Under the pieces are notes generated by a model. The model had not been told where the DNA came from and did not search any database. It saw only the letters and a list, made by a program, of their open reading frames with translations. A stretch of 64,000 nt of DNA. It comes from Actinomyces sp. Lineage in GTDB: Bacteria > Actinomycetota > Actinomycetes > Actinomycetales > Actinomycetaceae. Made by a program: the position numbers and the translations under genes. The stretch lies in assembly GCA_022649165.1 (NCBI GenBank), contig JALCNR010000007.1, positions 1-64,000 on the forward strand, given 5' to 3'. Positions 14,645 to 49,682 of this stretch are shown in pieces (position 1 is the stretch's first letter; each line of letters starts with the position of its first letter).

Positions 14645-14656
14645 ACTACAGCCACC
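14580..14656 (-). tRNA. tRNA-His (GTG)
   Basis: On the minus strand a full cloverleaf is seen: acceptor stem GTGGCTG/CAGCCAC, an extra G at -1 (position 14656) that is diagnostic for tRNA-His, anticodon loop TTGTGGT, and T arm GGGTTCGAATCCC. The discriminator is C (14583) and CCA is encoded at 14580-14582. The recombinase gene overlaps its 3' two-thirds on the opposite strand, so this is the probable host attachment site. Confidence 0.95.
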
Positions 14657-28094: not shown

Positions 28095-28170
28095 TGGTAC
28101 CCCCGACCGGATTTGAACCGGTGTTTGCGCCGTGAGAGGGCGACGTCCTGGGCCGCTAGACGACGGGGGC
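28095..28170 (-). tRNA. tRNA-Glu (CTC), copy with encoded CCA
   Basis: Minus-strand cloverleaf with acceptor GCCCCCG/CGGGGGT, anticodon CTC in CCCTCTCACG, T arm CCGGTTCAAATCCGG, discriminator A and encoded CCA at 28095-28097. It is identical over 73 nt to the copy at 28220-28292. Confidence 0.95.
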
Positions 28171-28219
28171 GATCTGACCCTGAAGCGGGTGTTTGTCCTG
28201 CCGAACGGATCGGCAGCGG

Positions 28220-28292
28220 TACCCCCGACCGGATTTGAACCGGTGTTTGCGCCGTGAGAGGGCGACGTCCTGGGCCGCTAGACGACGGGGGC
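28220..28292 (-). tRNA. tRNA-Glu (CTC), copy without encoded CCA
   Basis: Identical to the neighbouring tRNA-Glu, but the three bases after the discriminator read CCG, so CCA must be added after transcription. The two copies are 49 bp apart, a tandem duplication. Confidence 0.95.
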
Positions 28293-28328
28293 TTGAAGGA
28301 CACCGATCAGATCACCGACCGGCCTTCG

Positions 28329-28400
28329 CTGGGGTACCAGGACTCGAACCTAGACTAAGTGAACCAGAATCACTCGTGCTGCCAATTACACCATACCCCA
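28329..28400 (-). tRNA. tRNA-Gln (CTG)
   Basis: Minus-strand cloverleaf with acceptor TGGGGTA/TACCCCA, anticodon loop TTCTGGT (anticodon CTG), T arm AGGTTCGAGTCCT and discriminator G. CCA is not encoded. It is the first tRNA after gltX. Confidence 0.95.
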
Positions 28401-34543: not shown

Positions 34544-36103
34544 ATGACGACCAACGGAACCTACGTCCTCGGCATCGACTACGGCACGGAGTCGTGCCGC
34601 GTCGCGATCTGCGACCTCGAGGGACGCCCCCTCACCTTCGCCGCGACCGCCTACCCCACCGCCCACCCGCATCCGGGCTGGGCCGAGCAGAACCCCGAGG
34701 ACTGGTGGAACGCGCTGCAGGCCTCCACGCACAAGGCGCTGGCGAACTCCGGGGTCTCGCCCGCCTCGATCATCGGCATCTCCTACGACGCCACGACCCT
34801 GTCGATGGTGGCCATGGACGATCGCGGGACCGAGCTGCGCCCCGCCATCATGTGGATGGACGTGCGCGCCACCGACCAGGCGGCCCGCTCGAACGGATCC
34901 GACTCCGTGGCGCGCCTGTACAACGGAGGCGGCACCGCCCCCGCCATCGCCGAGTGGTATCCCTTCAAGGCCGCCTGGCTGAGGGAGAACGAGCCCGAGA
35001 CCTACGCGAGGGCAGCCCACCTCGTCGACGCCCCGGACTGGGTGACCTACAAGCTCACGGGCGAGTGGACCACCAACATCAACTCCGCGGCCCTGCGCAT
35101 GTACTACAACCGCGACAAGGGAGGCTGGCCCGTCGACTTCTACGAGACGATCGGGTGCGGCGACGTCTTCCCGAAGATCCCCGAGCGCGTCGTCGACCTG
35201 GGGCGGCCCGTCGGCGCGCTCGCGACGATCCCCGCCCAGCTCCTGGGGCTGCGCCCGGGCATCCCTGTCGCCCAGGGCCCTGGCGACGCCTGGGCCGGCC
35301 AGATCGGGCTGGGCGTCCTCGACCCCGGGTCGATGGCCCTGATCACCGGCTCCTCCCACGTCCTCACCGGGCAGTCCGCCACCGAGATCCACGGACCCGG
35401 ATTCTTCGGCGCCTACACCGACGGGGTCGTCCCCGGCCAATACACCGTCGAGTGCGGCCAGACCTCCACCGGTTCCGTCCTCAAGTGGTTCCGAGACAAC
35501 TTCGCGGCGGACTTGGTCCAGGCCGCGGAGAAGGTCGGGCTCAACCCGTACACGATCCTCGACGAGCGCGCCCGGGCCATCCGCCCCGGCAGCGACGGCC
35601 TCATCGTCACCGAGTACTTCCAAGGCAATCGGACTCCGTACTCCGACTCCCGGGCGCGGGGCATCATCTCGGGCCTGTCGCTCATGCACACGCCCGCCCA
35701 CATGTACAAGGCGATCCTCGAGGCCGTCTGCTACGGCACCGCCCTCAACATCCGCTCCGTGGAGGCGGCTGGGATGGACGTCCAGCGGCTGGTGGCCTGC
35801 GGGGGCGCCACGAAGAGCCGCGACTGGATCCAGATGCACGCCGACATCACCGGCGTGCCCGTCACCCTCACCGAGGTCGGGGACGCCGTGGTCCTGGGCA
35901 CCTGCATGCTCGCCGCGGTCGGCGCCGGCGCCTACGCCAGCCTCAACGAGGCCGCGGGCCGCATGGTCCACGACATCGAGGTCATCGAGCCTGATCCCGA
36001 GCGCCATGAGGAGTACGCCTTCTACGTCGACCGTTACGCCGAGCAGTTCCAGACGCTCCAGCCGATGCTCCACACGGTCGTCGACCACGAGAACCAGCAA
36101 TGA
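34544..36103 (+). CDS. FGGY-family kinase, ribulokinase-like
   Basis: This 519-residue kinase phosphorylates a sugar or polyol. IDYGTESCRVAI (residues 10-21) and the C-terminal FGGY signature region (YFQGNRTPYSDSRARGIISGLS near 355-376) identify the family. GPGDAWAGQIGLGV near 246 and GGATKSRDWIQMHADITG near 425 form the nucleotide pocket. Overall length and GTESCR resemble AraB-type ribulokinases and their relatives more than xylulokinase or glycerol kinase. Neither L-arabinose isomerase nor ribulose-phosphate 4-epimerase is present, so the substrate is probably not L-ribulose. It begins 41 bp after the phosphatase gene. Confidence 0.87.
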   Translation: MTTNGTYVLGIDYGTESCRVAICDLEGRPLTFAATAYPTAHPHPGWAEQNPEDWWNALQASTHKALANSGVSPASIIGISYDATTLSMVAMDDRGTELRPAIMWMDVRATDQAARSNGSDSVARLYNGGGTAPAIAEWYPFKAAWLRENEPETYARAAHLVDAPDWVTYKLTGEWTTNINSAALRMYYNRDKGGWPVDFYETIGCGDVFPKIPERVVDLGRPVGALATIPAQLLGLRPGIPVAQGPGDAWAGQIGLGVLDPGSMALITGSSHVLTGQSATEIHGPGFFGAYTDGVVPGQYTVECGQTSTGSVLKWFRDNFAADLVQAAEKVGLNPYTILDERARAIRPGSDGLIVTEYFQGNRTPYSDSRARGIISGLSLMHTPAHMYKAILEAVCYGTALNIRSVEAAGMDVQRLVACGGATKSRDWIQMHADITGVPVTLTEVGDAVVLGTCMLAAVGAGAYASLNEAAGRMVHDIEVIEPDPERHEEYAFYVDRYAEQFQTLQPMLHTVVDHENQQ

Positions 36104-36118
36104 TTGGAGATCCCACAC

Positions 36119-37477
36119 ATGTCTGACCTCATCCGGCAGGCCCTGGCGGACGCGGACGACACCGCGGTCGTCGTCATGGGCCACGATGTCCTGGGCGAGA
36201 CCGGTCGCGTCTTCACCGAGCTCTTCGGCGGCGCCCGAGCCATCGTGGTCGCCGACGAGAACACCTGGGCGGTGGCGGCAGACGCGGTGACCGCCTCGCT
36301 GAGGGCCGCCGGAGTGCCCCTGGAGGACCCCTATGTCTTCCCCGGGCGCCCGACGCTCTACGCCAGCTACGACAACGCGGAGAAGCTGCGCGACCATCTG
36401 CGCGGGGTCGACGCCATCGCCTGTTCGATCGGGTCGGGTTCTCTCAACGACCTCACGAAGCGCGCGAGCGACGAGCTGGGGCGCCGGTACATGAACGTGT
36501 GCACGGCGGCCTCGATGGACGGATACGCGGCCTTCGGCGCGTCCCTGACGGAGAACGGCTTCAAGCACACCATGAGCTGCCGGGCTCCCCAGGCGCTCAT
36601 CGCCGACCTGCCGACCATGGCGGGGGCCCCCCGGCGGTGCACCGCGTCGGGGCTGGGCGACCTCATCGAGAAGATCCCCGCCGGCGCCGACTGGATCCTC
36701 GCCGACGAACTCGGCGTCGAGCCGATCGACCAGGAGGTCTGGGACCTCGTGCAGGGACCGCTCCCCCATGCGATCAGCGATCCCGTCGGCCTGGCGGAAG
36801 GGCGTCCCGAGGCCTTCGAGGGCCTCGCGGAGGGCCTCATCATGTCGGGGCTGTCCATGCAGAAGTACCGGATCAGCTCCCGCCCGGCCTCCGGGGCCGG
36901 GCACCAGTTCTCCCACGTCTGGGAGATGGAGCACCTGGGGATGGACCAGGATCCGCCTCTCACCCACGGTCTGAAGGTCGGCCTGGGCACCATCGCGGTC
37001 CTCGCCCTGTGGGAGCGCGTCCTCGACCTCGATCTCTCCGCTCTCAACATCGATGCGCGCGCCGCGGCCTGGCCGGACGCTGAGGCGATGGAGGCCCGGG
37101 TCCGCGCCAGTTTCACTGGGACGATGGTCGAACCGGCGGTCAAGGAGACCATGGCGAAGCACCTCACCGCCGACCAGCTGCGTGAGCGCCTCGCCCTCAT
37201 CCAGGAGAGGTGGCCCTCCATCCGCGAGCGCTGCCGCGCTCAGGTCCAGCCCGCCGCGACGGTCGAGAAGATCCTGGCCGACGTCGGCGCTGTCACGCAT
37301 CCCCAGCAGATCGGTCTGACCCGGCGGCGCTTCCGCGACACCTACCTGCGGTGCCGCATGATCCGCAGCCGCTACACCCTGGTGGACTTCCTTGAAGAGC
37401 TCGGCGTCCTGGAGTCCGAGACCGACAGTCTCTTCGCCCCGGACGGTTTCTGGGGCCGGCGCCCCTGGACGAAGTGA
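36119..37477 (+). CDS. AraM-like sn-glycerol-1-phosphate dehydrogenase
   Basis: This 452-residue enzyme belongs to the iron/zinc alcohol-dehydrogenase-like group that includes AraM/EgsA, which reduces dihydroxyacetone phosphate to sn-glycerol 1-phosphate. It shows SIGSGSLNDLTKRAS near residue 105 (NAD site), CTAASMDGYAAFGASL near 128, and likely metal-binding histidines in AGHQFSHVWEMEH and LTHGLKVGLGT near 262-285. It is longer than AraM (about 394). A different polyol phosphate could be its substrate. It starts at ATG 36119, 15 bp after the kinase, behind TTGGAGATCC. Confidence 0.85.
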   Translation: MSDLIRQALADADDTAVVVMGHDVLGETGRVFTELFGGARAIVVADENTWAVAADAVTASLRAAGVPLEDPYVFPGRPTLYASYDNAEKLRDHLRGVDAIACSIGSGSLNDLTKRASDELGRRYMNVCTAASMDGYAAFGASLTENGFKHTMSCRAPQALIADLPTMAGAPRRCTASGLGDLIEKIPAGADWILADELGVEPIDQEVWDLVQGPLPHAISDPVGLAEGRPEAFEGLAEGLIMSGLSMQKYRISSRPASGAGHQFSHVWEMEHLGMDQDPPLTHGLKVGLGTIAVLALWERVLDLDLSALNIDARAAAWPDAEAMEARVRASFTGTMVEPAVKETMAKHLTADQLRERLALIQERWPSIRERCRAQVQPAATVEKILADVGAVTHPQQIGLTRRRFRDTYLRCRMIRSRYTLVDFLEELGVLESETDSLFAPDGFWGRRPWTK

Positions 37478-37512
37478 ATCCGCCCCCACCCCACCCTGCC
37501 CTGGAGGCACAT

Positions 37513-39582
37513 ATGACAGAACTGACCTGGACCGACGACGACGCGCGCGCTGTCGACATCGCCCGGGTGCTGGCCGCCGACGCGGTGCAGAGGACCGGGA
37601 ACGGGCACCCGGGCACACCGATCTCCCTGGCGCCCCTCGCCCACCTCCTGTACCACAAGGTCCTCCGGATGGATCCTCGGGACCCCCACTGGCTGGGCCG
37701 CGACCGATTCGTCCTCTCCGCGGGCCATGCCTCGATGCTCCAGTACGCCCAGCTCTACAGCGCCGGCCTCGGACTGGAGCTGGAGGACCTCGAATCCCTG
37801 CGCACCGAGGGATCGCTGACGCCGGGGCACCCCGAGTACGGGCGCACCCGGTTCGTGGAGACGACGACCGGGCCGCTCGGCGCCGGACTGTCCACGGCGG
37901 TCGGCATGGCGATGGCCGCTCGGCGCGAGCACGGGCTCTACGACCCCGGCACGCCCCTGGGGGAGTCCGTCTTCGACCACGACGTCTACGTCATCGCCGG
38001 TGACGGATGCCTGCAGGAGGGCGTGCAGGCGGAGGCCGCTTCCCTGGCGGGGACCCAGGAGCTCGGAAACCTCGTGGTCCTCTACGACGACAACCGCATC
38101 ACCATCGAGGGCGACACCCGCATCGCCTTCACCGAGGACGTCGAGGCCCGGTACCGCGCCTACGGCTGGCACGTCCAGCACGTCGACTGGACGCAGGGGG
38201 GAACCGGCTACCGCGAGGACGTCCGCGCCCTCCACCGGGCGATCGAGGCCGCCCGCGCCGTCGCCGACCGCCCCAGCCTCATCCGGCTGACGACCGTCAT
38301 CGGATGGCCCCTGCCGACGAAACAGGGATCGGAGTCGGTGCACGGCTCCGCCATCGGCGAGGACGAGATCGCCGCCCTGAAGAGGGTCCTGGGGATGCCT
38401 CCGGAGCCCTTCGGCTTCGACGCCTCCGTCATCGAACGGACCCGCGCCGCCCTCGCCGGCCGCGCCGCGCAGGAGCGCGCCGAGTGGGACAGCCGTTTCG
38501 GGCGGTGGCGCTCGTCCGCCCCCGAGCGGGCGGCCCTGCTCGACCGCGTCCGTGCGGGCCGGCTCCCCGACGCGCTCGCCCTGCCGGCGTTCCCGGAGGG
38601 GAGGATGAGCACGCGGAAGGCCTCAGGCAAGGTCCTCGACGCGCTCGGGCCCCAGCTGCCCGAGCTGTGGGGCGGGTCCGCGGACCTGGCGGGTTCGAAC
38701 AACACCACGATGTCGGGAGAGGACTCGTTCCTGCCCTCGGACCGCGCCGGAGCGCACTGGCCGGGGAGTCTGTTCGGCCGGGTCCTCCATTTCGGCGTAC
38801 GCGAGCACGCGATGGGAGGGGCCCTCAACGGGATCACCCTGTCAGGACTCACCCGCGCCTACGGAGGCACCTTCTTCGTCTTCTCCGACTACATGCGCCC
38901 AGCCGTGCGCCTGGCCGCGCTCATGGGCATCGGGTCCGTCTTCGTGTGGACCCATGACTCCATCGGCGTCGGCGAGGACGGACCGACCCACCAGCCGGTC
39001 GAGCACCTGGCGAGCTACCGGGCGATCCCGGGCCTCGACATCGTGCGCCCCGCGGACGCCAACGAGACGGCAGTCGTCTGGAGGGAGATCCTCTCCCACC
39101 GCGACCGTCCCGCGGGCCTGGTCCTGTCGCGCCAGGACCTGCGCACGGTGGACCGCGAGGATCCGGCCTTCGCCTCCGCGGAGGGGGCGGCGCGGGGCGC
39201 CTACGTGCTGCGCGAGGCCTCGGCGTCCCCCGAGCTCATCCTCATCGCCACCGGGTCCGAGGTGGAGGCGGCCCTGGAGGCCCAGGACCTGCTGGAGTCC
39301 CAGGGCGTCGCCACGCGCGTCGTGTCCATGCCCTGCCAGGAGTGGTTCGACGCCCAGGACGCCGGCTATCGGGACTCCGTCCTGCCGGAGAATGTGCCGG
39401 CCCGGGTCAGCATCGAGGCGGGTCTGGCCCTGGGGTGGAGCCGCTACGTCGGACCGCGCGGAGCCTCGGTCAGCCTCGAGCATTTCGGCGAGTCCGCCCC
39501 CGGCGGGCGCCTCATGGAGAAATTCGGCTTCACCGGCGAGCACGTCGCCCAGGTGGCCAGGGACGTCCTCGCGAGCATGTGA
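37513..39582 (+). CDS. tkt: Transketolase
   Basis: This 689-residue thiamine-diphosphate enzyme transfers two-carbon units, for example joining erythrose 4-phosphate with the donor unit of xylulose 5-phosphate. GNGHPGTP (residues 31-38), GDGCLQEGVQAEAASLAG near 163 (ThDP/Mg site), and THDSIGVGEDGPTHQPVEHL near 480 are diagnostic. Length is normal. A growing actinobacterium normally has a housekeeping tkt-tal pair elsewhere, so this is likely a pathway-specific copy; that cannot be seen here. It starts at ATG 37513 after CTGGAGGCACAT. Confidence 0.95.
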   Translation: MTELTWTDDDARAVDIARVLAADAVQRTGNGHPGTPISLAPLAHLLYHKVLRMDPRDPHWLGRDRFVLSAGHASMLQYAQLYSAGLGLELEDLESLRTEGSLTPGHPEYGRTRFVETTTGPLGAGLSTAVGMAMAARREHGLYDPGTPLGESVFDHDVYVIAGDGCLQEGVQAEAASLAGTQELGNLVVLYDDNRITIEGDTRIAFTEDVEARYRAYGWHVQHVDWTQGGTGYREDVRALHRAIEAARAVADRPSLIRLTTVIGWPLPTKQGSESVHGSAIGEDEIAALKRVLGMPPEPFGFDASVIERTRAALAGRAAQERAEWDSRFGRWRSSAPERAALLDRVRAGRLPDALALPAFPEGRMSTRKASGKVLDALGPQLPELWGGSADLAGSNNTTMSGEDSFLPSDRAGAHWPGSLFGRVLHFGVREHAMGGALNGITLSGLTRAYGGTFFVFSDYMRPAVRLAALMGIGSVFVWTHDSIGVGEDGPTHQPVEHLASYRAIPGLDIVRPADANETAVVWREILSHRDRPAGLVLSRQDLRTVDREDPAFASAEGAARGAYVLREASASPELILIATGSEVEAALEAQDLLESQGVATRVVSMPCQEWFDAQDAGYRDSVLPENVPARVSIEAGLALGWSRYVGPRGASVSLEHFGESAPGGRLMEKFGFTGEHVAQVARDVLASM

Positions 39583-39602: not shown

Positions 39603-39643
39603 CACCGGGGGCCCGGCCGCTGACCACGGTCAGGCCCCCGGTG
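39603..39643. terminator. Convergent hairpin between tkt and the DeoR gene
   Basis: CACCGGGGGCC (39603-39613) pairs with GGCCCCCGGTG (39633-39643), an 11-bp perfect stem with a 19-nt loop. It overlaps the last codons of the DeoR gene and could act on both strands. Confidence 0.55.
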
Positions 39644-40451
39644 TCGTCTCCTCGTCGAGGTGCGGCGCGACCTCGACCATCACTCCTTGTGCCCGCAGGC
39701 CCTCGACCGTCTCCCCCGTCGTCCCGGAATCGACGACGACGGCGTCGAACTCGTCGAGGGTGGCGAACTGGAAGAGGGCCCGGCGTGAGAACTTCGAATG
39801 GTCGAGGAGCATGATCCGCCGCTCGGCGGAGTCGAGCATCGCGCGCTTGACCGCGACGTTGTCCTGGTAGGGATGGAAGCATGCCAGCCCGGAGATCCCC
39901 GAAGCCGACACTACGGAGACGTCGGCGTGCATCGAACGGACGAAGTCCGTCACCGAGGGGCCCATCAGCGAGCGCGCCCACGGCTCATAGGTCCCTCCCG
40001 CCAGGACCAGCTTGATCGAGTTGCGCTCGACGACCTCGTTGGCCACGAGCAGGGAGTTCGTCACGATGGTGAGCGGCATCGTCTGCGGAAGGGCTCTGAG
40101 CAGCCAGATGCCCGACGTCGAGTCGTCGAGCATCAGCGATCCCCCGGAGGGGACCATCTGCGCGGCGACGGCCGCGACATCGCGTTTGAGCGCCGCCTGC
40201 TGTTCCAGGCGGAACTCGGCGTCGGCCTCCTGCATCGCGGAGGCGACGGCGACCACCTTGCCTCGATGGCGCTGGAGGACGCCGCGGTCCTCCAGCTGGG
40301 CGAGATCGCGGTAGACGGTCATCACGGACACGCCCGTCAGCGCCGCGAGCTTCTCGACGCTGATCGTGCCGTGCTTGATCACCGCCTCGGCGATCGCCAG
40401 CTGACGTTCCTTGGGGCCGTCCGCCTGGGTGTCCCCCGTGTTCCTCGCCAT
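39630..40451 (-). CDS. DeoR/GlpR-family repressor
   Basis: The 273-residue regulator has an N-terminal helix-turn-helix (residues 14-70; ISVEKLAALTGVSVMTVYRDLAQLEDRG is the family signature, MTVYRDL in the recognition helix) and a DeoRC effector domain related to sugar-phosphate isomerases (MLDDSTSGIWLLRAL, IVTNSLLVANEV, VLAGGTY). Such proteins bind a phosphosugar. Its place between the two halves of the cluster makes it the best candidate to bind the paired CAT-N5-ATG promoter elements. I start it at ATG 40451 behind GAGAGGAGGCG. It is 45 bp downstream of rpiB. Confidence 0.9.
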   Translation of the reverse strand: MARNTGDTQADGPKERQLAIAEAVIKHGTISVEKLAALTGVSVMTVYRDLAQLEDRGVLQRHRGKVVAVASAMQEADAEFRLEQQAALKRDVAAVAAQMVPSGGSLMLDDSTSGIWLLRALPQTMPLTIVTNSLLVANEVVERNSIKLVLAGGTYEPWARSLMGPSVTDFVRSMHADVSVVSASGISGLACFHPYQDNVAVKRAMLDSAERRIMLLDHSKFSRRALFQFATLDEFDAVVVDSGTTGETVEGLRAQGVMVEVAPHLDEETTPGA

Positions 40452-40496
40452 CCGCGCGCCTCCTCTCACATCGGGTGTCCGCGAGTGGTCGCGCCC

Positions 40497-41089: not shown

Positions 41090-42262
41090 ATGACGATCCG
41101 CACCTTCACCGATGAGGAGCTCCGCCGCGTGGGCGGCCTGAAGTGGAGCGGGATCACCACAGGGGACGGCTCCCCCACGATCGGCGCGTGGGTGGCGGAG
41201 ATGGACTTCGCCACCGCGCCTCCTGTGGCCGAGGCGATGAAACGGGCCATCGACGACGGCTTGCTCGGCTACCAGCCGACCTGGCTGGCCGGGCGGGTCG
41301 CCGAGGCGCTCTCCGCCTTCGAGCGCCGCCGCTTCGGATGGGACGTGGACCCCGCGCACATCCGGCTGGCGGAGTCCGTCCTGCCCGCCCTGCGCGCCAC
41401 GCTCACGCACCTGGTGCGCCCCGGAGCCCCCGTGGTCGTCCCCACCCCGGCCTACATGCCGTTCCTCACGATCCCCGAGGAGCTGGGCCACGAGGTCATC
41501 CAGGTGCCCTCCCTGCATGGAGACGGAGCCTGCGGGCACGGCTGGGCGCTGGACCTGGAGGGCATCCGGGCGGGCCTGGAGGCCGGGGCCGGCCTGGTCA
41601 TGCTGTGCAACCCGTGGAACCCCACGGGGCGCGTCCTCACCGAGAAGGAGCTGCGGGGCCTCCAGGGCGTCGTCGCCGGCTTCGACGCGCTGGTGTTCTC
41701 CGATGAGATCCACAGCCCGCTGGTCCTCGGGGAATGCGGACGCTTCCTCTCCTACGCCCGGCTCGGCCCCGAGTTCGCCGCCCACACCGTCACGGCCACC
41801 GCCGCCTCCAAGGGGTGGAACATCGCCGGATTGCCCTGCGCGCAGGTGGTCCTGCCGGACGACGACCTCAGACGGCGATGGGACGCCTTCGGCCCGTCGG
41901 TGGCCCACGGCGCCTCCACCATCGGGGCGCTGGGCACCGTGGCCGCCTACCTGCATGGGGATGACTGGCAGGCCGAGGTCCGCGCGGTCGTCGAGGAGAA
42001 CATCGACCTCGCCCTGGAGGCCGCGGCGGGCACCGGCATCGACCTCGTCCGCCCTCAGGGCACCTACCTCACCTGGTGGGGTTTCGAGGGGCTGGGCCTG
42101 CCCTCCTCCCCCGCCACCGTCCTGCGGGAGCGCAGCCGCATCGCGACGAACGACGGCGCCGCCCTCGGTCGCGGCTACGAGCAGTGGGCCCGCATCAACC
42201 TGGCGTGCTCCCCCGCCGCCGCCCGGGAGATCGTCGAGGGCGTCCTGGGCGTCCTCGCCTGA
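41090..42262 (+). CDS. PLP-dependent C-S lyase/aminotransferase, MalY/PatB family
   Basis: This 390-residue fold-type I PLP enzyme has WVAEMDFATAPPV near residue 35, NPWNPTGRV near 178, DEIHSPL near 205, and the PLP lysine in TATAASKGWNIAGL near 240. This matches the PatB/MalY branch, which cleaves cystathionine or cysteine conjugates. It is divergent from rpiB and not obviously tied to the sugar cluster. It starts at ATG 41090 after CAGGAGGCCTCCCC. Confidence 0.9.
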   Translation: MTIRTFTDEELRRVGGLKWSGITTGDGSPTIGAWVAEMDFATAPPVAEAMKRAIDDGLLGYQPTWLAGRVAEALSAFERRRFGWDVDPAHIRLAESVLPALRATLTHLVRPGAPVVVPTPAYMPFLTIPEELGHEVIQVPSLHGDGACGHGWALDLEGIRAGLEAGAGLVMLCNPWNPTGRVLTEKELRGLQGVVAGFDALVFSDEIHSPLVLGECGRFLSYARLGPEFAAHTVTATAASKGWNIAGLPCAQVVLPDDDLRRRWDAFGPSVAHGASTIGALGTVAAYLHGDDWQAEVRAVVEENIDLALEAAAGTGIDLVRPQGTYLTWWGFEGLGLPSSPATVLRERSRIATNDGAALGRGYEQWARINLACSPAAAREIVEGVLGVLA

Positions 42263-42287: not shown

Positions 42288-43109
42288 TCATGCCGCCATG
42301 CCGAGGGCGTAGACGGCGACCGTCGCCAGGGAGGACCCCACGATCGGCGCGGTGATCGGGATCCAGGAGTAGGACCAGTCGGCCGGCGTCTTCCCCGGGA
42401 TGGGCAGGATCGTGTACGCGATGCGCGGGGACAGGTCCCTCGCCGGGTTCAGCGCGTAGCCCGTCGCCCCGCCGAGGCCCATGCCGATCGTCACGATGAC
42501 CAACGCCACGGCCAGCGGCCCGATCTGCGTCGGTGTCCCGCCCGAGACCAGCACCCACGCGACGAGGATGCCGGTCGCCACGACCTCGGTGACGAAGTTC
42601 CACCCGTAGCTGCGCACGGCCGGACCGGTGGCGAAGGTCCCGAGCTTGACCCCGGGCTCGGTGGGCTGGTCGTACTGGCGCTTAAGCGCGAGCCACGCCA
42701 GGACCGCGCCCACGAACGCCCCGAGGAACTGGGCCGCGAGGTAGATCCCGACATTTCGGGCGCTCACCGGGATGCCGCCCTGCCCGACCGGCAGGCCATT
42801 GAGCGTGACGGATCCGTCGAACCCGTGGGCGATCACCTTGGCCACGGTCACCGAGGGATTGAGGTGGGCCCCTGTCTTCCACGCCCCGTAGCAGCCGGCG
42901 AAGACCGCGAAACCCCAGCCGAGGGTCACCACGACCCACCCGGAGTTCGAGGCCTTGGACCGGGGGAGGAAGACCGCCGCCGTGACGGCGGTCCCGATCG
43001 TCATCATGATCGCGGTCCCCAGGAACTCGGAACTGAACATGTCCCATGGCGTGGGGACCGCCGGGACATCCGTCGTCGTCGCCACGGTGAGCAATGCGTC
43101 CAACATCAT
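42288..43109 (-). CDS. Aquaglyceroporin (MIP family), GlpF-like
   Basis: This 273-residue channel has six membrane segments and two half-helix motifs: HLNPSVT near residue 84 (NPS in place of NPA) and YALNPARDLSPR near 225. The aspartate directly after the second NPAR is typical of glycerol-conducting rather than water-only channels. GlpF-type pores are known to pass small polyols including erythritol. It is the last gene of the right-hand leftward group, 113 bp after the aldolase gene. I start it at the first of two ATGs (43109), after AGAAGGCAACG. Confidence 0.9.
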   Translation of the reverse strand: MMLDALLTVATTTDVPAVPTPWDMFSSEFLGTAIMMTIGTAVTAAVFLPRSKASNSGWVVVTLGWGFAVFAGCYGAWKTGAHLNPSVTVAKVIAHGFDGSVTLNGLPVGQGGIPVSARNVGIYLAAQFLGAFVGAVLAWLALKRQYDQPTEPGVKLGTFATGPAVRSYGWNFVTEVVATGILVAWVLVSGGTPTQIGPLAVALVIVTIGMGLGGATGYALNPARDLSPRIAYTILPIPGKTPADWSYSWIPITAPIVGSSLATVAVYALGMAA

Positions 43110-43222: not shown

Positions 43223-44005
43223 TCAGGCGTGCACGATGCCCGACAGCCGCGCCATCGTGGCCTCCATGTCCGGCACCTGCCAGACGTTGCGCCCGAAGAT
43301 CAGGCCGCGGGCGCCCGCGGCGATGGCGTCGCGCGCGGCGCGGGCCACCTGCTCGTCGGAGGCCGCAGCCCCGCCGAGCGTGAGCACCGGGACGTCCCCG
43401 GCCTCCTCGATGAGGACCCGCTCCGCCTCGACGTCGCCGACGAACTCGGTCTTGATCGCGTCGGCGCCCAGTTCCGCCGCGATGCGGCACATCTGCCGGA
43501 GCCCCTCGGGGTCCTTCTGGTCGGCGTTGCGCCGGCCCCACAGGGTCGCCTCCACGATGACCGGCAGACCCAGCGCGTGGGCGCGCTGGACGTAGGAGGC
43601 GACCGCCGCGACGTTGTCCGCGAACATCCCGCCGTCCTCCGGCCAGCCGATGAGGTAGAGGCAGACGGCCCCCGCCCCGAGCGCGAGCGCCTCGCGCGGA
43701 TCGATGAGGGTCCGGTAGCGCTCTCCCAGCTCGGTCTGCATCCGAGGGTCCAGGGTGGTCCAGTCCGCCCGGAGGATCGCCACGGGAGCCTTTCGGTGGG
43801 CGAAGAGGTCCTGGGTCTGGGCGAGCATCCCGCCCGTGACGAGGACGGCCTCGGGGCCGCCGGCGAGGATCCGGCGCATGAGGGCCACCGGGTCGCCGAG
43901 GCCTGCGGGGATGGGGAGCGCCTGCCCGTGGTCGAACGCGACGACGAACGCCCGCCCCGACGACTCGTCGAAGATCTGTCCGAGACGCATGGAGATACCG
44001 CTCAT
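43223..44005 (-). CDS. DeoC/LacD/LsrF-type class I aldolase
   Basis: This 260-residue TIM-barrel protein has FVVAFDHG near residue 20, LRADWTTLD near 80, EATLWGRRN near 150, and GADAIKTEFVGD near 180 with a lysine placed as the Schiff-base former of class I aldolases. TLGGAAASDEQV follows. The group includes DhnA-type fructose-bisphosphate aldolase, tagatose-bisphosphate aldolase and LsrF, so it probably splits or thiolyses a phosphosugar. Substrate unknown. I start it at ATG 44005 (MSGISM); ATG 43990 is possible. It lies 74 bp after the dehydrogenase gene. Confidence 0.82.
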   Translation of the reverse strand: MSGISMRLGQIFDESSGRAFVVAFDHGQALPIPAGLGDPVALMRRILAGGPEAVLVTGGMLAQTQDLFAHRKAPVAILRADWTTLDPRMQTELGERYRTLIDPREALALGAGAVCLYLIGWPEDGGMFADNVAAVASYVQRAHALGLPVIVEATLWGRRNADQKDPEGLRQMCRIAAELGADAIKTEFVGDVEAERVLIEEAGDVPVLTLGGAAASDEQVARAARDAIAAGARGLIFGRNVWQVPDMEATMARLSGIVHA

Positions 44006-44079
44006 AGTTTGTTTGCTGCCTTCCTGTTCGTCCGTTGAGGGCCGCAGCCCGGTGTCTGCGGCGGTGTGGCGCAGGTCCG

Positions 44080-45120
44080 TCAGGCCCTGCGGTTGAGCAG
44101 TTCCCCGCCGGTGAGGAAGCGCGTGAGCTCCTCGACTCCGATCTCGACGGAGGTCTCCATGGTGTCGGCCGAGGTCCCGGCCAGATGCGAGGTCAGCGTG
44201 ATGTTGTCCAGGGACAGATAGGGGTGGTCCGGCGCCAGGGGCTCCCGCTCGTAGACGTCGACGGCGGCGCCGCCGATGGCGTGCGCGCGCAGCGCCTCCG
44301 CGAGGGCAGCCTCGTCGACGAGGTCGGCGCGAGCCGTGTTGACGAGGTACGCCGTCGGTTTCATCAGCTTCAGGGTCTCCGCGTTGATCATGTGATGCGT
44401 CGACTCCGAGATGCGCATGTGCAGGGTGACGAAGTCGGACTGGGCCAGCAGGTCCTCCAGCGTGTCCGCCCTGGCCGCGCCCGCCTCCTCGATCCTGTCG
44501 GCGGAGACGTAGGGGTCGAAGACCAGGATTCTGCTCTCGAACCCGCGGAGCCGCTGGGCGACCCGGCTGCCGATGTTCCCGAAGCCGACGATCCCGACGG
44601 TGCACTTGCGCATGTCGTGGATGTGCGCCTGATTGGCGTACTCCTTGCACCACACTCCCTCCTTGAGGAGGTGGAAGCTCCGCGCGATGTTCTTGTTCTC
44701 CGCGATCATCATGCCGACCGTGAAGTCGGCGACGGCGTTGGCGGAACGCCATGGGGCGTTCACCAGGGGGATGCCGCGCTCGCGAAGCGCGTCGACGTCG
44801 GCGTTCTCGTACCCGCCTCGGAGGACGGCGACGAGGCGGAGGTTCGCGGCCCGCTCGATGACCGCCTTGTTGACCGAGGCGACGTGGACGACGATCGCGT
44901 CCTTGTCCGAGCAATTGTCCAGAAGAGCCTGGCACGAGGGCGCGGCGTCGACCCCTTCATGCTCGATGAGCCCCATCCGGTCGGTGATCTCGGCCATCGA
45001 CGCCATGTCGGCGTCCTCGACGATGGTGACCTCGGCACCCAGCTGCTCAAGGCCCTTCATCTTCTGCATCATCGACACGGTGACGCCGCCATCGGCGACG
45101 CACAGGATCTTCATGGTCAT
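44080..45120 (-). CDS. D-2-hydroxyacid dehydrogenase family
   Basis: This 346-residue NAD-dependent enzyme resembles phosphoglycerate and related 2-hydroxyacid dehydrogenases. GIVGFGNIGSRVAQRL near residue 178 is the NAD site; VAVLRGGYEN near 98 and NTARADLVDEAAL near 268 carry substrate-binding arginines, and LTSHLAGTS near 317 the catalytic histidine. The start ATG overlaps the stop of the GlpP-like gene (ATGA). Substrate unknown; a phosphorylated aldonate such as erythronate 4-phosphate is one possibility. Confidence 0.88.
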   Translation of the reverse strand: MTMKILCVADGGVTVSMMQKMKGLEQLGAEVTIVEDADMASMAEITDRMGLIEHEGVDAAPSCQALLDNCSDKDAIVVHVASVNKAVIERAANLRLVAVLRGGYENADVDALRERGIPLVNAPWRSANAVADFTVGMMIAENKNIARSFHLLKEGVWCKEYANQAHIHDMRKCTVGIVGFGNIGSRVAQRLRGFESRILVFDPYVSADRIEEAGAARADTLEDLLAQSDFVTLHMRISESTHHMINAETLKLMKPTAYLVNTARADLVDEAALAEALRAHAIGGAAVDVYEREPLAPDHPYLSLDNITLTSHLAGTSADTMETSVEIGVEELTRFLTGGELLNRRA

Positions 45121-45752
45121 CTTCCTTCTTCTCTCTCTTGCGGATGATGGGAGTCCGTCCGGCCGCGGCCGGACCGGCGCTCCCCGGGGCCCAGGTCCCA
45201 GACGCGCCGCGAACTGGTGTTGACCGCGCTGTAGCCCGCGTCGAAAAGCTGGCGGGCGATCTCCTCCCCCGACACGAAGCCCCCGGCGATCACCGGACGG
45301 CCGCCCGCAGCCTGCAGCACGGAGCCGGCGACGGTCAGGGCCATCGGCCCGGGCACGATCTCGAACCCGGTCCAGCGCGATGCCGGCATCGTCGACAACG
45401 ACGTCTCCAGGGCGCGGCTGTCGAGCAGGAACACCCTCCAGAACACGTCAAGTCCCGCCTCCAGGGCGTGGTTGCCGGTGACGACGGACGAGGTGAACAC
45501 GCCGTCCACGCCGAAGGCCTGCCGGAGCAGCCGGATCCCCCTCTGATCGGACTTCAGGCCCTCCACCAGGTCGGGGCGGACGAGCACCGGCTTGCCCATC
45601 GCGTGGCACTCCTGCGTGAGGGAGGCGATATTGCCGATGTGGACATTCGTCAGGAGGATGCACGGCGCGGACGAGTGGAGGGCGTCCTGCAGATGGGCGA
45701 GGTTGTACAGGGAGGCCACGACCGTGCGCGAGCCCGCGGGGATGACGGTCAT
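45117..45752 (-). CDS. glpP: GlpP-family RNA-binding antiterminator
   Basis: This 211-residue protein matches the GlpP family, whose Bacillus subtilis member binds glycerol 3-phosphate and then the leader mRNAs of glpD and glpFK to prevent termination. The TIM-barrel-like pattern is clear: ILLTNVHIGNI near residue 30, GKPVLVRPDLVEGLKSDQRG near 52, FTSSVV near 87, VFLLDSRALE near 105, FEIVPGPM near 128, and VIAGGFVSGEEI then AVNTSSRRVWDL near the end. It is coupled by ATGA overlaps to the kinase before and the dehydrogenase after it. An intrinsic terminator precedes the operon. Its ligand here is probably a phosphorylated product of the operon's kinase. Confidence 0.88.
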   Translation of the reverse strand: MTVIPAGSRTVVASLYNLAHLQDALHSSAPCILLTNVHIGNIASLTQECHAMGKPVLVRPDLVEGLKSDQRGIRLLRQAFGVDGVFTSSVVTGNHALEAGLDVFWRVFLLDSRALETSLSTMPASRWTGFEIVPGPMALTVAGSVLQAAGGRPVIAGGFVSGEEIARQLFDAGYSAVNTSSRRVWDLGPGERRSGRGRTDSHHPQEREEGR

Positions 45753-47248
45753 CGGCACAGCCTGTCCAGGCACCGCAGCCACGCGTCGAACTTGGCGGCG
45801 TAGGCTTTCGTCGCTTCCGGCGAGTGGGTGATGGTCCGCCCCGAGGGGACCATCGCCTCGGCCGCCTCCACGACGGAGGGGTACGCCCCCAGGGCCGCCG
45901 CGGCGGCGACCACGGCGCCGAGGACGCCCGATTCCGCCACGGGGACCGTCTCAAGGTCGAGGCCCAGGACGTCGACCAGGAGCTGCGACCATTCGGGGGA
46001 CTTCGTCACCCCGCCGGTGAGCCTGGCCCGGCCGGCCAGTGCGCCGTAGCCCCGGAGCCGTTCGATGTGCTCCTTGTGCGAGAAGGCGACGCCCTCGTAG
46101 AGGGAGCGCAGGAGCTGGGTGATGCCGTCCGCGTTGGAGACGTTCGTCCACCCTCCCAGGCCCCCCGGATGGAGGTTCGACCCGAAGACCATCGGGAGGT
46201 AGGACACCTGGCGGGAGTCGGCGCCCGGGGCGAAGACCATGGCGTCGCACAGGCGGAACAGCTCCTTGTTGCTCAACGACTCCATGCCCGGCAGAGGTCT
46301 GAGGACGTTGGAGACGAACCACTCGAGGTTCGCCGCCGAGGTCGGCGACGCCTCCATGACGAGGTAGCGGCCCGGCATGGGAGCCAGCGAGGTCATGAAG
46401 AGCCGTTCGTCGACCACCGGATCCGGGGTGAAGTACTCGTTGATGGACCATGTCCCCGTCACCACCGAGAGCTGGTGGTCCCTCACCGCGCCCGCCCCGA
46501 TGGCGGACGCCGAGATGTCGGAGACGCCGCCCAGCACCGGGGTTCCCGCCCGGAGTCCCACCTGCTGGGCGACGTCCGCCCGGATCCGGCCCGCCACGTC
46601 GCCGGAGCCGACGAGCGGAGGCAGCTTGTCCGACCAGGCTCCCAGGCCCATCCGTCCGAGACCCGTGGCATCCAGCGTCCTCGTGCGCATGTCGAGGAAG
46701 TTCGTGCAGGAGGCGTCGGTGATCTCGAAGGCCGGCACGCCCGTGAGCCGGAAACGGATGTAGTCCTTGACCATGAAGATGTGGCGGGCGCGCTCGACGC
46801 TGTCAGGCTCGTGCTCCGACAGCCAGGCGAGCAGCGCCAGGGGAGCTCCGGGGAAGAGCGACTGCATCGTCGAGTCGAGGAAGGTTTCCGTGTAGGAGCC
46901 GTCGGACGTCCATCGGTCGACGATGTCCTGGGCCCGGGAGTCGTTCGAGATGATGCCGTTGCGCACGGGCGCCCCATCGGGGCCGACCAGGTAGAGGCCG
47001 TTGCCGTGACCGGTCACCGTCACGGCGGCGACATCGGCGGGATCGATGCCGCCGTCCTCCACGACGGCGCGGATCGCGCCAACGTTGGCCGTCCACAGGT
47101 CCTCCATGTCGCGTTCGCTCCAGCCGGCCTGCGTGAGCACCGGGGGGACGGACTCGGTGGCCAGGGCGATGAGTTCGCCGCCGACCGAATACAGCGCGGC
47201 CTTCGACACGGTCCCGCCGTTGTCGATGCCCAGTATGTATTGCGTCAT
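45749..47248 (-). CDS. FGGY kinase, LyxK/EryA-like
   Basis: This 499-residue kinase starts MTQYILGIDNGGTVSKAAL, close in wording to L-xylulose kinase LyxK and to erythritol kinase EryA. QAGWSERDMEDLW near residue 40, GHGNGLYLV near 78 and MEASPTSAANLEWF near 280 are shared with that branch. GGVTKSPEWSQLLVDVLGL near 400 and GVLGAVVAAAAALG near 430 form the ATP site. It likely commits a ketose or polyol imported through the aquaglyceroporin. It is the first gene of a five-gene leftward group and overlaps glpP by ATGA. GAAAGGGTTGCA precedes the ATG. Confidence 0.87.
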   Translation of the reverse strand: MTQYILGIDNGGTVSKAALYSVGGELIALATESVPPVLTQAGWSERDMEDLWTANVGAIRAVVEDGGIDPADVAAVTVTGHGNGLYLVGPDGAPVRNGIISNDSRAQDIVDRWTSDGSYTETFLDSTMQSLFPGAPLALLAWLSEHEPDSVERARHIFMVKDYIRFRLTGVPAFEITDASCTNFLDMRTRTLDATGLGRMGLGAWSDKLPPLVGSGDVAGRIRADVAQQVGLRAGTPVLGGVSDISASAIGAGAVRDHQLSVVTGTWSINEYFTPDPVVDERLFMTSLAPMPGRYLVMEASPTSAANLEWFVSNVLRPLPGMESLSNKELFRLCDAMVFAPGADSRQVSYLPMVFGSNLHPGGLGGWTNVSNADGITQLLRSLYEGVAFSHKEHIERLRGYGALAGRARLTGGVTKSPEWSQLLVDVLGLDLETVPVAESGVLGAVVAAAAALGAYPSVVEAAEAMVPSGRTITHSPEATKAYAAKFDAWLRCLDRLCR

Positions 47249-47266
47249 TGCAACCCTTTCGCACAC

Positions 47267-47313
47267 AAAAAAGCCCGCCCCCCTGGCGCTTCTCAACGCC
47301 AAGGGAACGAGCT
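47267..47313 (-). terminator. Strong intrinsic terminator in the kinase leader
   Basis: On the minus strand a 17-bp stem (AGCTCGTTCCCTTGGCG with CGCCAGGGGGGCGGGCT, including G-U pairs) has an 8-nt loop and is followed by TTTTTT. It ends only 18 bases before the kinase start codon, leaving no room for a promoter between. It is therefore either an attenuator of the kinase-glpP operon or the end of the PNP operon, or both. Confidence 0.88.
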
Positions 47314-47354
47314 GACAGTGACACAGGCTCTGCGTCTTTTGTTTTGGTGGCGCC

Positions 47355-47383
47355 AGGATACACAGGCGCCGGGGGCGCGTCAA
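47355..47383 (-). promoter_or_regulatory. Promoter upstream of the leader terminator
   Basis: On the minus strand TTGACG (47383-47378) and TATCCT (47360-47355) are 17 bp apart, a near-consensus sigma-70-type promoter. It would start transcription near 47348 and give a leader of about 100 nt containing the terminator. Two copies of GGCGCC (47349-47354 and 47365-47370) flank the -10 box. Confidence 0.72.
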
Positions 47384-47394
47384 AGGGTGCCGCG

Positions 47395-48195
47395 TCAGGC
47401 CGCGGCGAGCACCGCCTCGATCCCCCGGCGGACCGTCTCCCCCGCCCGGGCCGCTGCCTCGACGACGGCGGACGGATCCGTGGGGGCGTCGGCGAAGGAC
47501 AGGGCGGACACGACGCTCATGCCCGCCACCTGCACGCCGAGCGCGCGCAGGGTGAGGGCCTCCATCACGGTCGACATCCCCACGCAGTCCGCGCCGGTCG
47601 ACGCCAGCCACCGGGTCTCCGCGCGCGTCTGGTACTCGGGTCCGCGCAGGATCGCGTAAACGCCTCGACGCTGGCACACGCCCGCCACCACGTCCGTGAG
47701 CGCCGGGTCCCAGGTGTCCCGGGGATCCAGGAAGACCGTCCCATCGAAGGGCGAGTGTCCGGAGAAGTTCAGGTGGTCCTCGATCGCCATGACGTCGCCG
47801 AGCGCCCAGTCGCGCAGGCATCCGTTCGCGTTGCACAGCACGGCCCGCGACACCCCCGAGGCCGCGGCCGCCCGCACGAAGGAGGTGACCCGGGAGGCGG
47901 AGGCGCCCTCGTACAGGTGCGTGCGTCCCAACGCCACGAGGACGTCGCGGCCCGCGCGTCGGTAGGAGCGGACCTCGTCGACGTGGCCGTCCGCCTGGGG
48001 CTCCAGGACGCCCGGGATCGCGGACAGGGGGAACCGCGCGCGAGGCTCGCCCCAGGACTCGAGCGCTCCCGCGAGGCCGGAGCCCAGCACGACCACCGTG
48101 TCGTGGCGCTCCGCCCCCGACAGGCGGGCGATGGCGCGGGCGTCCTCATGGGACTCCGCGCGCAGGAGGGCCTGCGGGAACTCCTCCGGGGTCAT
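47395..48195 (-). CDS. Purine nucleoside phosphorylase family
   Basis: This 266-residue enzyme should split purine nucleosides with phosphate. It shows VVLGSGLAGALESWG (residues 34-48), ALGRTHLYEGA near 83, LCNANGCLRDWALGDVMAIEDHLNFSG near 113, GVYAILRGPEYQTRAE near 165 and VGMSTVMEALTLRALG near 192, all features of trimeric PNP. The start overlaps the permease stop by ATGA. It forms a nucleobase/nucleoside salvage pair with that permease; ribose 1-phosphate released could feed pentose phosphates. Confidence 0.92.
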   Translation of the reverse strand: MTPEEFPQALLRAESHEDARAIARLSGAERHDTVVVLGSGLAGALESWGEPRARFPLSAIPGVLEPQADGHVDEVRSYRRAGRDVLVALGRTHLYEGASASRVTSFVRAAAASGVSRAVLCNANGCLRDWALGDVMAIEDHLNFSGHSPFDGTVFLDPRDTWDPALTDVVAGVCQRRGVYAILRGPEYQTRAETRWLASTGADCVGMSTVMEALTLRALGVQVAGMSVVSALSFADAPTDPSAVVEAAARAGETVRRGIEAVLAAA

Positions 48196-49682
48196 CTCTG
48201 CGCCCCCTCCGCGAAGGTCCGGGCGCCCGCAGCCTCCTGGGCCCGCACCCGCGAGCGGGAGGTCAGCAGGTAGCCTGCGAACCCGACGAGCATGGCCAGC
48301 AGGATCCCGATGTTGGAGTACGCCCAGTCCCCCTCGCGCCCTCCGATGGGACCGAGCAGGTACCCCTGCCAGCTGAGCCACGAGGCGGAGGAGTTGACGA
48401 CGAGCCCCCACCCGACGAAGGCCCCGATCAGCAGCGAGACGACCGCGCCCCAGTTGACGGACCCGTAGACGCCGCCGGCGCGGAACAGGTCGGGCTCGTT
48501 GTAGTCCTTCCTGCGCAGCAGGATGTCCGCCAGCATGACACCGCCCCATGCGGCGATGACGACGCCGAGCGTGGTGAGGAAACCCGTGAACGGCGTGATG
48601 AACGAGTCGGCGAAGAACACCACCCAGATGGTGCCGATCAGCATGATCGTGCCGTCGATCGCGGTGGCGACCGGGCGGATGACCGGGAGGCCGGCCGACA
48701 GCAGCGACAGCCCGGAGCTGTAGATGTCCATGACGATGCCGCCGATGAGGCCCAGGATCGCGACGATCGCGAAGGGGATGAGGAACCAGGTCGGCAGGAT
48801 CGTCGTGAGCGCGCCGATGGGGTCGAGGTCGATGGCCTCGCCCAGGTCGGGGTCCGATCCCACGAGCAGGAGGCCGAAGAACACCAGGATGACGGTGGGC
48901 AGGGCCGATCCGAAGGTCGTCCATCCCACGACGCCCCGGGTCGAGGCCGAGCGCGGCAGGTAGCGCGAGTAGTCCGCGGCGGCGTTGATCCACCCGAAGC
49001 CGAACCCCGCGAGCAGCATGCACAGCGCGCCGACGACGGCCGCGGTGGAGCCGGAGGGGAGGGAGGAGACCGCCTCCCAGTCGATCCTCGGCAGGGTCAG
49101 ACCCAGGTAGATCACGGTGAGTGCGGCCGTCAGCCACGTGATCCACGTCTGCACCTTCATGATCGTGTCGAAGCCGAGGATGCCGGAGCCCGCGGCGATC
49201 GCGACGACCAGGATCAGGCTGACGATCTGGGCGACCAGGTGGTTCTCGAATCCGAGCGCCCCCATGACGGTGGCGGTGGCCTGGACGGCCATGATGCACA
49301 GGAAGGTCTCCCAGCCGACCGTGAGGATCCAGGAGATGACGGCCGACAGGCGATTGCCGTTGTACCCGAAGGCCGCGCGGGAGAGCACCAGCGTGGGCGC
49401 CGATCCCCGTTTGCCGGCGATGGCGATGAGGCCGCAGGCGAGGAAGGACAGGACGACGCCGATGATGCTGGCGGCGACCGCCTGCCAGAAGGAGATGCCG
49501 AATCCCAGCACCCACGCGCCCCAGGACAGCCCCAGGACGGAGATGTTCGCGGCGAACCACGGCATGAACAGGTCGGAGGGCCTGCCCTTCCGGTCGGATT
49601 CGGGGATGACGTCCAGGCCCGCCATCTCGACGGCCAGCCCCCCGGAGTCCGCGGAGTCGGGGACGGATGTGTGCTCGCTCAT
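48192..49682 (-). CDS. NCS1-family nucleobase permease
   Basis: The 496-residue membrane protein has about twelve hydrophobic segments and the NCS1 pattern: FMPWFAANISVLGLSWGAW near residue 40, then VLSRAAFGYNGNRLSAVISWI near 98 and GWETFLCIMAVQATA near 122. The family carries cytosine, purines, hydantoins or thiamin with cations. Coupling to a PNP gene suggests a purine or purine nucleoside substrate. ATG 49682 follows ACAGGAGCACCC. Confidence 0.9.
   Translation of the reverse strand: MSEHTSVPDSADSGGLAVEMAGLDVIPESDRKGRPSDLFMPWFAANISVLGLSWGAWVLGFGISFWQAVAASIIGVVLSFLACGLIAIAGKRGSAPTLVLSRAAFGYNGNRLSAVISWILTVGWETFLCIMAVQATATVMGALGFENHLVAQIVSLILVVAIAAGSGILGFDTIMKVQTWITWLTAALTVIYLGLTLPRIDWEAVSSLPSGSTAAVVGALCMLLAGFGFGWINAAADYSRYLPRSASTRGVVGWTTFGSALPTVILVFFGLLLVGSDPDLGEAIDLDPIGALTTILPTWFLIPFAIVAILGLIGGIVMDIYSSGLSLLSAGLPVIRPVATAIDGTIMLIGTIWVVFFADSFITPFTGFLTTLGVVIAAWGGVMLADILLRRKDYNEPDLFRAGGVYGSVNWGAVVSLLIGAFVGWGLVVNSSASWLSWQGYLLGPIGGREGDWAYSNIGILLAMLVGFAGYLLTSRSRVRAQEAAGARTFAEGAQR

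Follow-up and report, generated by a model that had tools for sequence, protein, structure and literature searches.

We analyzed a 64,000-nucleotide stretch of DNA from an Actinomyces sp. (contig JALCNR010000007.1; the whole stretch is called the window below), in which a minus-strand operon for a carbohydrate kinase begins with a terminator-bearing leader and encodes, as its second gene, a homologue of the antiterminator protein GlpP. We hold it to be quite probable that this operon is catabolic, serves a substrate other than glycerol, and is controlled by auto-activating GlpP-type antitermination, with a phosphorylated pathway intermediate as the ligand. The parts of this system, their conservation, the agreement in number between leaders and GlpPs in the host family, and the complementarity of two leader arms across lineages all emerged directly from the computation.

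We infer the RNA binding, the direction of the switch, the ligand, and the substrate, and picture the mechanism as follows. Transcription would start at about position 47348 and, by default, stop at a hairpin at 47313-47272. Ligand-bound GlpP would bind the leader and stabilize a helix between GAGC (47330-47327) and GCUC (47312-47309), with a 14-nucleotide (nt) loop. This antiterminator helix would take bases from the 5' arm of the terminator, letting the polymerase read into the operon. As readthrough would cover glpP itself, the window operon would form a self-activating circuit. The ligand would most likely be the product of the kinase or a compound one step further on, and not glycerol 3-phosphate. 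An earlier note on this DNA (the original prediction) had GlpP reading a phosphorylated product of its partner kinase; the ligand could be that product or another phosphorylated intermediate.

The operon, its leader, and their distribution

The window operon has the gene order kinase-glpP-dehydrogenase-aldolase-MIP on the minus strand. Its first gene (45749..47248) encodes a 499-amino-acid FGGY-family carbohydrate kinase (PF00370, 180 bits; PF02782, 82 bits), and its second (45117..45752) a predicted GlpP-family antiterminator of 211 amino acids, based on a profile match and its place in the tree described below. The assignment as a GlpP homologue in the original prediction stands, with 123 bits against PF04309 (cut-off, 27), an alignment over profile positions 1-173 of 173, and relatives among the structures of the Protein Data Bank (3kts, E 8.7e-15; 1vkf, E 5.7e-13). 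Next come a D-isomer specific 2-hydroxyacid dehydrogenase of 346 amino acids (44080..45120), retained in related operons, a DeoC/LacD-family aldolase (43223..44005), and a MIP-family channel (42288..43109), all three assigned by family match. ATGA overlaps join the kinase to GlpP, as had been predicted, and GlpP to the dehydrogenase. The gene after the channel (41090-42262, plus strand) is convergent to the operon. The span first given for the operon, 45117..47390, does hold the elements placed in it, but the operon is longer, continuing through the dehydrogenase, the aldolase, and the MIP channel.

The predicted promoter and leader of about 100 nt are both present. The promoter, TTGACG-17-TATCCT, lies at 47355..47383 on the minus strand (-35 box at 47383-47378 and -10 box at 47360-47355), and was the sole sigma-70-like site called in 44000-49000, where shuffled sequence gave a mean of 0.2. 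The leader RNA (47249..47348, minus strand), with its start placed from the -10 box, opens with an A-rich box, AAAACAAAAGA (47335..47345, minus strand), directly after the presumed transcript start. An intrinsic terminator follows (47267..47313, minus strand), with its stem at 47313-47272 and six T at 47272-47267, the last T being 18 nt ahead of the kinase ATG at 47248. The run of six U and the 18-nt gap are as originally described, but the stem has 19 pairs, both by scan and by RNAfold, and not 17. Under a loose scan rule one terminator-like site was found in 44000-49000 with 1.0 expected, a count that is not significant alone; the fold of the leader (-49 kcal/mol, z -4.35) was reached by 0 of 200 shuffles.

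We searched 213 genomes of the host family, along with order and phylum samples of 396 genomes each. PF04309 was matched above its cut-off at 20 places in 15 of the 213 family genomes; at E 1e-10 and with the host included, GlpP matches were found in 11 of the 396 order genomes and 28 of the 396 phylum genomes. Sixteen of the 20 family places have kinase and 2-hydroxyacid dehydrogenase genes as neighbors, with an aldolase seen in 14, and the remaining four are L007, L008, L009, and L034. Five of the 16 operons are kinase-first (the window, L044, L046, L047, and L048) and 11 are aldolase-first. The original prediction was to be checked by conservation of the hairpin where glpP is conserved, and in these orthologous operons a leader with the A-rich box and a terminator lies upstream of the first gene in 16 of 16 cases, at a distance of 378 nt from the gene match in L036 and 247 nt in L037. 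The host genome itself contains a second, paralogous operon about 50 kb away on the same contig (L006, G000:C7:97147 to about 103200), with the order aldolase-glpP-kinase-SDR-dehydrogenase-EIIC and a leader of its own.

An alignment-based scan of named genomes yielded 39 loci, which include Flaviflexus, Ancrocorticia, Arcanobacterium, Actinobaculum, and Acidipropionibacterium as well as Cytobacillus, Priestia, Brevibacillus, Anaerosalibacter, and Tissierella. A single-sequence scan of genome contigs found no relatives, and viral contigs yielded none. Locus L131 (Propionibacteriaceae) has the order kinase-glpP-dehydrogenase-aldolase-MIP, and its GlpP is 63% identical to that of the window. A Klebsiella record and Escherichia coli SE11 both have aldolase-glpP-kinase-SDR-dehydrogenase-EIIC; the Klebsiella leader, with an A-rich box that is only partial, is nearly unchanged in SE11. 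A search of 5426 complete E. coli genomes found, at its sensitivity, the aldolase-glpP-kinase stretch in 3 of them, and in SE11 the operon (L157, record 304130-310182) adjoins topAI and yjhQ; the rarity and this location suggest horizontal gain. Just before glpP in the Bacillota loci L129 and L130 (about 5940-5970) lies a palindrome, AAAACGTTTTCA, which we take to be cre-like, so that catabolite control of glpP is possible there.

We trained a leader model, R1, on the 16 family leaders; its family matches are training sequences and thus speak to specificity, not sensitivity. On the window leader, one of these sequences, the match covers 47265-47347 at 48.4 bits. In 23 GlpP-bearing genomes R1 made 15 strong matches, all at operons of the GlpP clade described below, and the rest scored E 0.5 or worse. 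The sixteenth leader, L037, was missed genome-wide and recovered by a local search at 37.8 bits. Across all 213 family genomes the same 15 matches were found, plus one weak partial match (G026, E 0.005). The family has 16 leaders and likewise 16 clade GlpPs. Outside the training set, R1 matched the leaders of L125 (38.9 bits, E 3e-7) and L131 (30.8 bits, E 4e-5), which sit 83 and 15 nt ahead of the first gene, respectively. A promoter with at least 9 of 12 matches lies just upstream in 12 of 28 leaders compared, the window included. No good promoter match was found for the nine Bacillota leaders (except L123a), L035, L036, L037, or Klebsiella, and the promoter argument is therefore valid for the window and its nearest relatives.

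The proposed antiterminator helix

In the window, the left arm of the proposed helix is GAGC (47327..47330, minus strand) and the right arm GCUC (47309..47312, minus strand), the latter also within the 5' arm of the terminator; both are candidates from comparison. MAFFT did not align the 28 leaders correctly across lineages, so we tested the pairing with a helix search and judged its results against shuffles, control terminators, and permuted arms. The search took the 5' start of each terminator from RNAfold and sought the best helix between the upstream sequence and that arm. Of 500 shuffles, 0 attained the helix score summed over the 28 leaders. With a loop of 12-16, 27 of 28 leaders form a helix of 4 bp or more, versus 384 of 904 other terminators of the same loci (Mann-Whitney p 1e-10, which is overstated since the leaders are related).

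When the arms were permuted at the same loop range, the observed total was reached in 0 of 5000 permutations, both for all 28 leaders and for 23 representatives, and in 53 of 5000 for the nine Bacillota and Klebsiella representatives. Allowing a loop of 12-18 gave 1, 0, and 82 of 5000 for these three sets. The arm pairs differ by lineage: GAGC/GCUC, CGGG/CUCG, UGAG/CUCA, and GGUC/GACC, and further GGGUU/AACCC, GUAGGAU/GUCCUGC, AGUAGG/CCUACU, and AGGGU/GCCCU. On alignment A1, 80% of the helix cells were paired, versus 8-51% for slid versions.

A number of results count against this reading. The helix of the window leader was matched by a fraction 0.402 of 500 shuffles and is not significant alone, only 8 of 28 leaders fell individually below 0.05 in the same test, and 20 of 500 shuffles attained the covariation score on alignment A1. 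Two leaders depart from the pattern: L037 has no helix at loop 12-16, and that of L035 is poor. The helix of L124a is ambiguous. For the 14 actinobacterial leaders the arm permutation test fails (2212 of 5000), because the arms barely vary there. Swapped left arms scored a higher mean than a leader's own, at 13.83 against 12.33 for group A with A, the group of the window, and at 11.94 against 10.25 for B with A; the swap does not discriminate within Actinobacteria.

The more distant leaders bring further difficulties. Of the ten Bacillota and Klebsiella leaders, R1 was applied to the nine from Bacillota; it matched seven of them, at E 0.0008 to 1.4, and gave no match for L123b and L133b. Unrelated places had comparable scores, including one in L124 at E 0.016. 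Since unrelated sites score alike, the nine Bacillota leaders and one Klebsiella leader were taken by eye, a choice that may favor pairing. The Bacillota leaders precede the aldolase in L123 and L124 and directly follow glpP in seven loci. Auto-activation is not general, since the sole leader seen in five Bacillota loci follows glpP, and the regulator would there be made ahead of the switch.

The apparent conservation of the pairing thus draws its support from differences between lineages and from variation within Bacillota. The original prediction had offered the GAGC/GCUC pairing as a weak alternative; its positions were right and it seems to be conserved over wide distances, but neither the window nor the Actinobacteria by themselves give a significant result. 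An actinobacterial left arm that is nearly fixed, complementarity there that is no better than permuted, and the two leaders without a clear helix would also suit a GlpP that covers the terminator arm directly or stabilizes the RNA with no antiterminator helix, the left element then being a protein-binding sequence only. However, the left and right arms co-vary between lineages, and we regard this alternative as unlikely, though one to keep in view. The reading we prefer, an antiterminator helix stabilized by GlpP, resembles the switches of LicT, SacT, SacY, and GlcT, in which a protein stabilizes a weak hairpin that overlaps the terminator. Those switches differ in having an unrelated protein, phosphorylation by the phosphotransferase system as the signal, and another RNA motif.

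The GlpP clade and its ligand

In a tree of 71 GlpP proteins (quick search with SH-aLRT support, no bootstrap), all 27 operon-linked GlpPs and L137, an Anaerobutyricum GlpP adjoining a distant FGGY kinase, form one clade with SH-aLRT 100; the window GlpP groups beside that of L131. The clade covers Actinomycetota, Bacillota, and enterobacteria, and lies apart, on a long branch (1.12), from GlpPs adjoining true glycerol kinases. Its operons combine a kinase and a 2-hydroxyacid dehydrogenase with a transporter of the EIIC-like or MIP type, usually with an aldolase, and in many cases with an SDR; the transporter types suggest a small neutral polyol or sugar as the substrate.

The window kinase scored below every cut-off in an NCBIfam model scan, failing both the GlpK equivalog TIGR01311 (95.5 bits; cut-off, 590.35) and the XylB model (204.8 bits; cut-off, 380.25), and the solved structures closest to it are autoinducer-2 and xylulose kinases. 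Kinases beside other GlpPs, by comparison, passed the GlpK cut-off in five of six cases tested: L134, L142, L144, and L135 from Bacillota and L072 from another class of the host phylum passed, and L007 failed. Together with the separate clade and the lack of any further strong R1 leader elsewhere in GlpP-bearing genomes, this makes it rather doubtful that the window GlpP still senses glycerol 3-phosphate and couples the operon to glycerol status. Points in favor of such sensing are the GG and S-x4-W positions, which are common to the clade and other GlpPs, and the MIP channel of the window operon, glpF being one as well. The window leader is best read as being of the GlpP type but on a separate branch.

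Leaders beside GlpPs of the glycerol-kinase type have a helix of at least 4 bp in 11 of 16 cases (loop 12-18), a count made without controls and with some terminator starts misplaced. Those from Caloramator, Sporolactobacillus, and another class of the phylum are like the window leader in this short helix between upstream sequence and terminator arm; they differ, as judged by eye, in loops that tend to AGAG-N-GAGA and in an A-rich box that is different or absent. Five loci of that other class (L068, L069, L072, L080, and L083, about 2017-2300) contain glpP, a terminator leader, and an FGGY kinase. The original prediction had GlpP control described for Firmicutes, and for glycerol. A limit to Firmicutes is probably too narrow even for glycerol: with glpP, a terminator leader, and a kinase passing GlpK in L072, Actinomycetota probably also have glycerol genes under the control of GlpP.

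Six further actinobacterial loci were inspected by eye, and a hairpin with a T run was seen near glpP in L007, L008, L034, L057, and L058, and not in L009. A glycerol-type label given to L007, L008, L009, and L034 was dropped, as the kinase of L007, the only one of these checked, is not GlpK. L007 contains glpP, an unassigned protein, an SDR, a GlcD-like oxidase, and an FGGY kinase without an NCBIfam match at E 1e-50. Its GlpP belongs to a further branch, with a terminator leader after glpP (L007:7709-13539), and L007 is perhaps a third GlpP-controlled pathway. We take the cluster to resemble the ygc cluster of E. coli.

Genomic surroundings and known GlpP systems

The hairpin could merely end the upstream PNP operon, with the kinase transcribed from elsewhere. 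It would indeed also stop PNP transcripts, the PNP gene ending at 47395, 11 nt ahead of the -35 box of the kinase operon. However, the promoter sits between PNP and the hairpin, only 18 nt are left between the T run and the kinase ATG, and the same operon is again preceded by the hairpin in L044, L046, L047, and L048, loci of 9.5-16 kb each that yielded no homologue of PNP, NCS1, or FAH. We consider this explanation very improbable; the upstream promoter, the recurrence without PNP, and the equal numbers of leaders and clade GlpPs (16 each) bear out the original assignment of the terminator to the kinase/GlpP operon.

We give hardly any credence to the leader being a riboswitch or being read by another factor, such as the product of a nearby DeoR-type gene (39630-40469), with GlpP as a passenger: GlpP-leader binding is itself a prediction, but strong leader matches and clade GlpPs coincide across 213 genomes, Rfam gave no match at its gathering score, and the pre-terminator stretch of about 35 nt was judged short for an aptamer. 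At the gathering score, Rfam matched only tRNAs in the window and nothing in ten related loci, the best sub-threshold match being 20.3 bits against a gathering score of 70.4. The window tRNA genes include tRNA-His (14580-14655) and a cluster of two tRNA-Glu and one tRNA-Gln (28095-28400), all on the minus strand. A neighboring second sugar cluster has consecutive plus-strand genes (34547-39582) for a second FGGY kinase, an iron-containing dehydrogenase (PF13685), and a transketolase, with RpiB and a DeoR-type regulator on the opposite strand.

According to passages of PMC9604022 and PMC7430163, GlpP of Bacillus subtilis bound to glycerol 3-phosphate acts at terminator leaders of glpD, glpT, and glpFK. 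Compared with the leaders in these passages, the window has the same kind of protein and the same layout, in which a promoter precedes a leader that combines a GlpP site, predicted here, with an intrinsic terminator; metabolite-dependent antitermination is likewise presumed here. It differs in that its GlpP falls in a separate clade, its kinase is not GlpK, and the regulator lies inside the operon that it would open; moreover, R1 finds no strong leader in the host genome beyond its two operons. Nine FGGY functions are listed in PMC3245297, from which the word GlpP is absent, and the GlpP clade is untreated in passages of PMC3997798, PMC9732521, and PMC2965389. A literature search, with subscription journals mostly outside it, found no description of this GlpP clade or leader.

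Few antiterminator proteins sense a metabolite; GlpP is among them, and the passages cited link it to glycerol genes. We lean, by a small degree, toward a wider proposal, in which Actinomycetota, Bacillota, and enterobacteria share a second GlpP clade. This clade would act through a leader-RNA class of its own, respond to a sugar phosphate that is not glycerol 3-phosphate, and mark a catabolic pathway yet to be described, with an FGGY kinase, a 2-hydroxyacid dehydrogenase, an aldolase, in many cases an SDR, and a transporter of the EIIC-like or MIP type. Each GlpP would serve its own leader in genomes with two operons, L007 would represent a third branch, and GlpPs would perhaps be general sugar-phosphate antiterminators. 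If true, such a clade, present in three phyla and provided with distinct leaders, would expand what is now one example to a family that responds to several ligands. Such a family would provide natural protein-RNA pairs for recognition studies and compact, self-contained switches, and the host, with its two GlpP operons, would offer a natural setting for testing whether such switches are insulated from each other. It would also draw attention to a catabolic pathway whose substrate might be identified through the compound that opens the switch.

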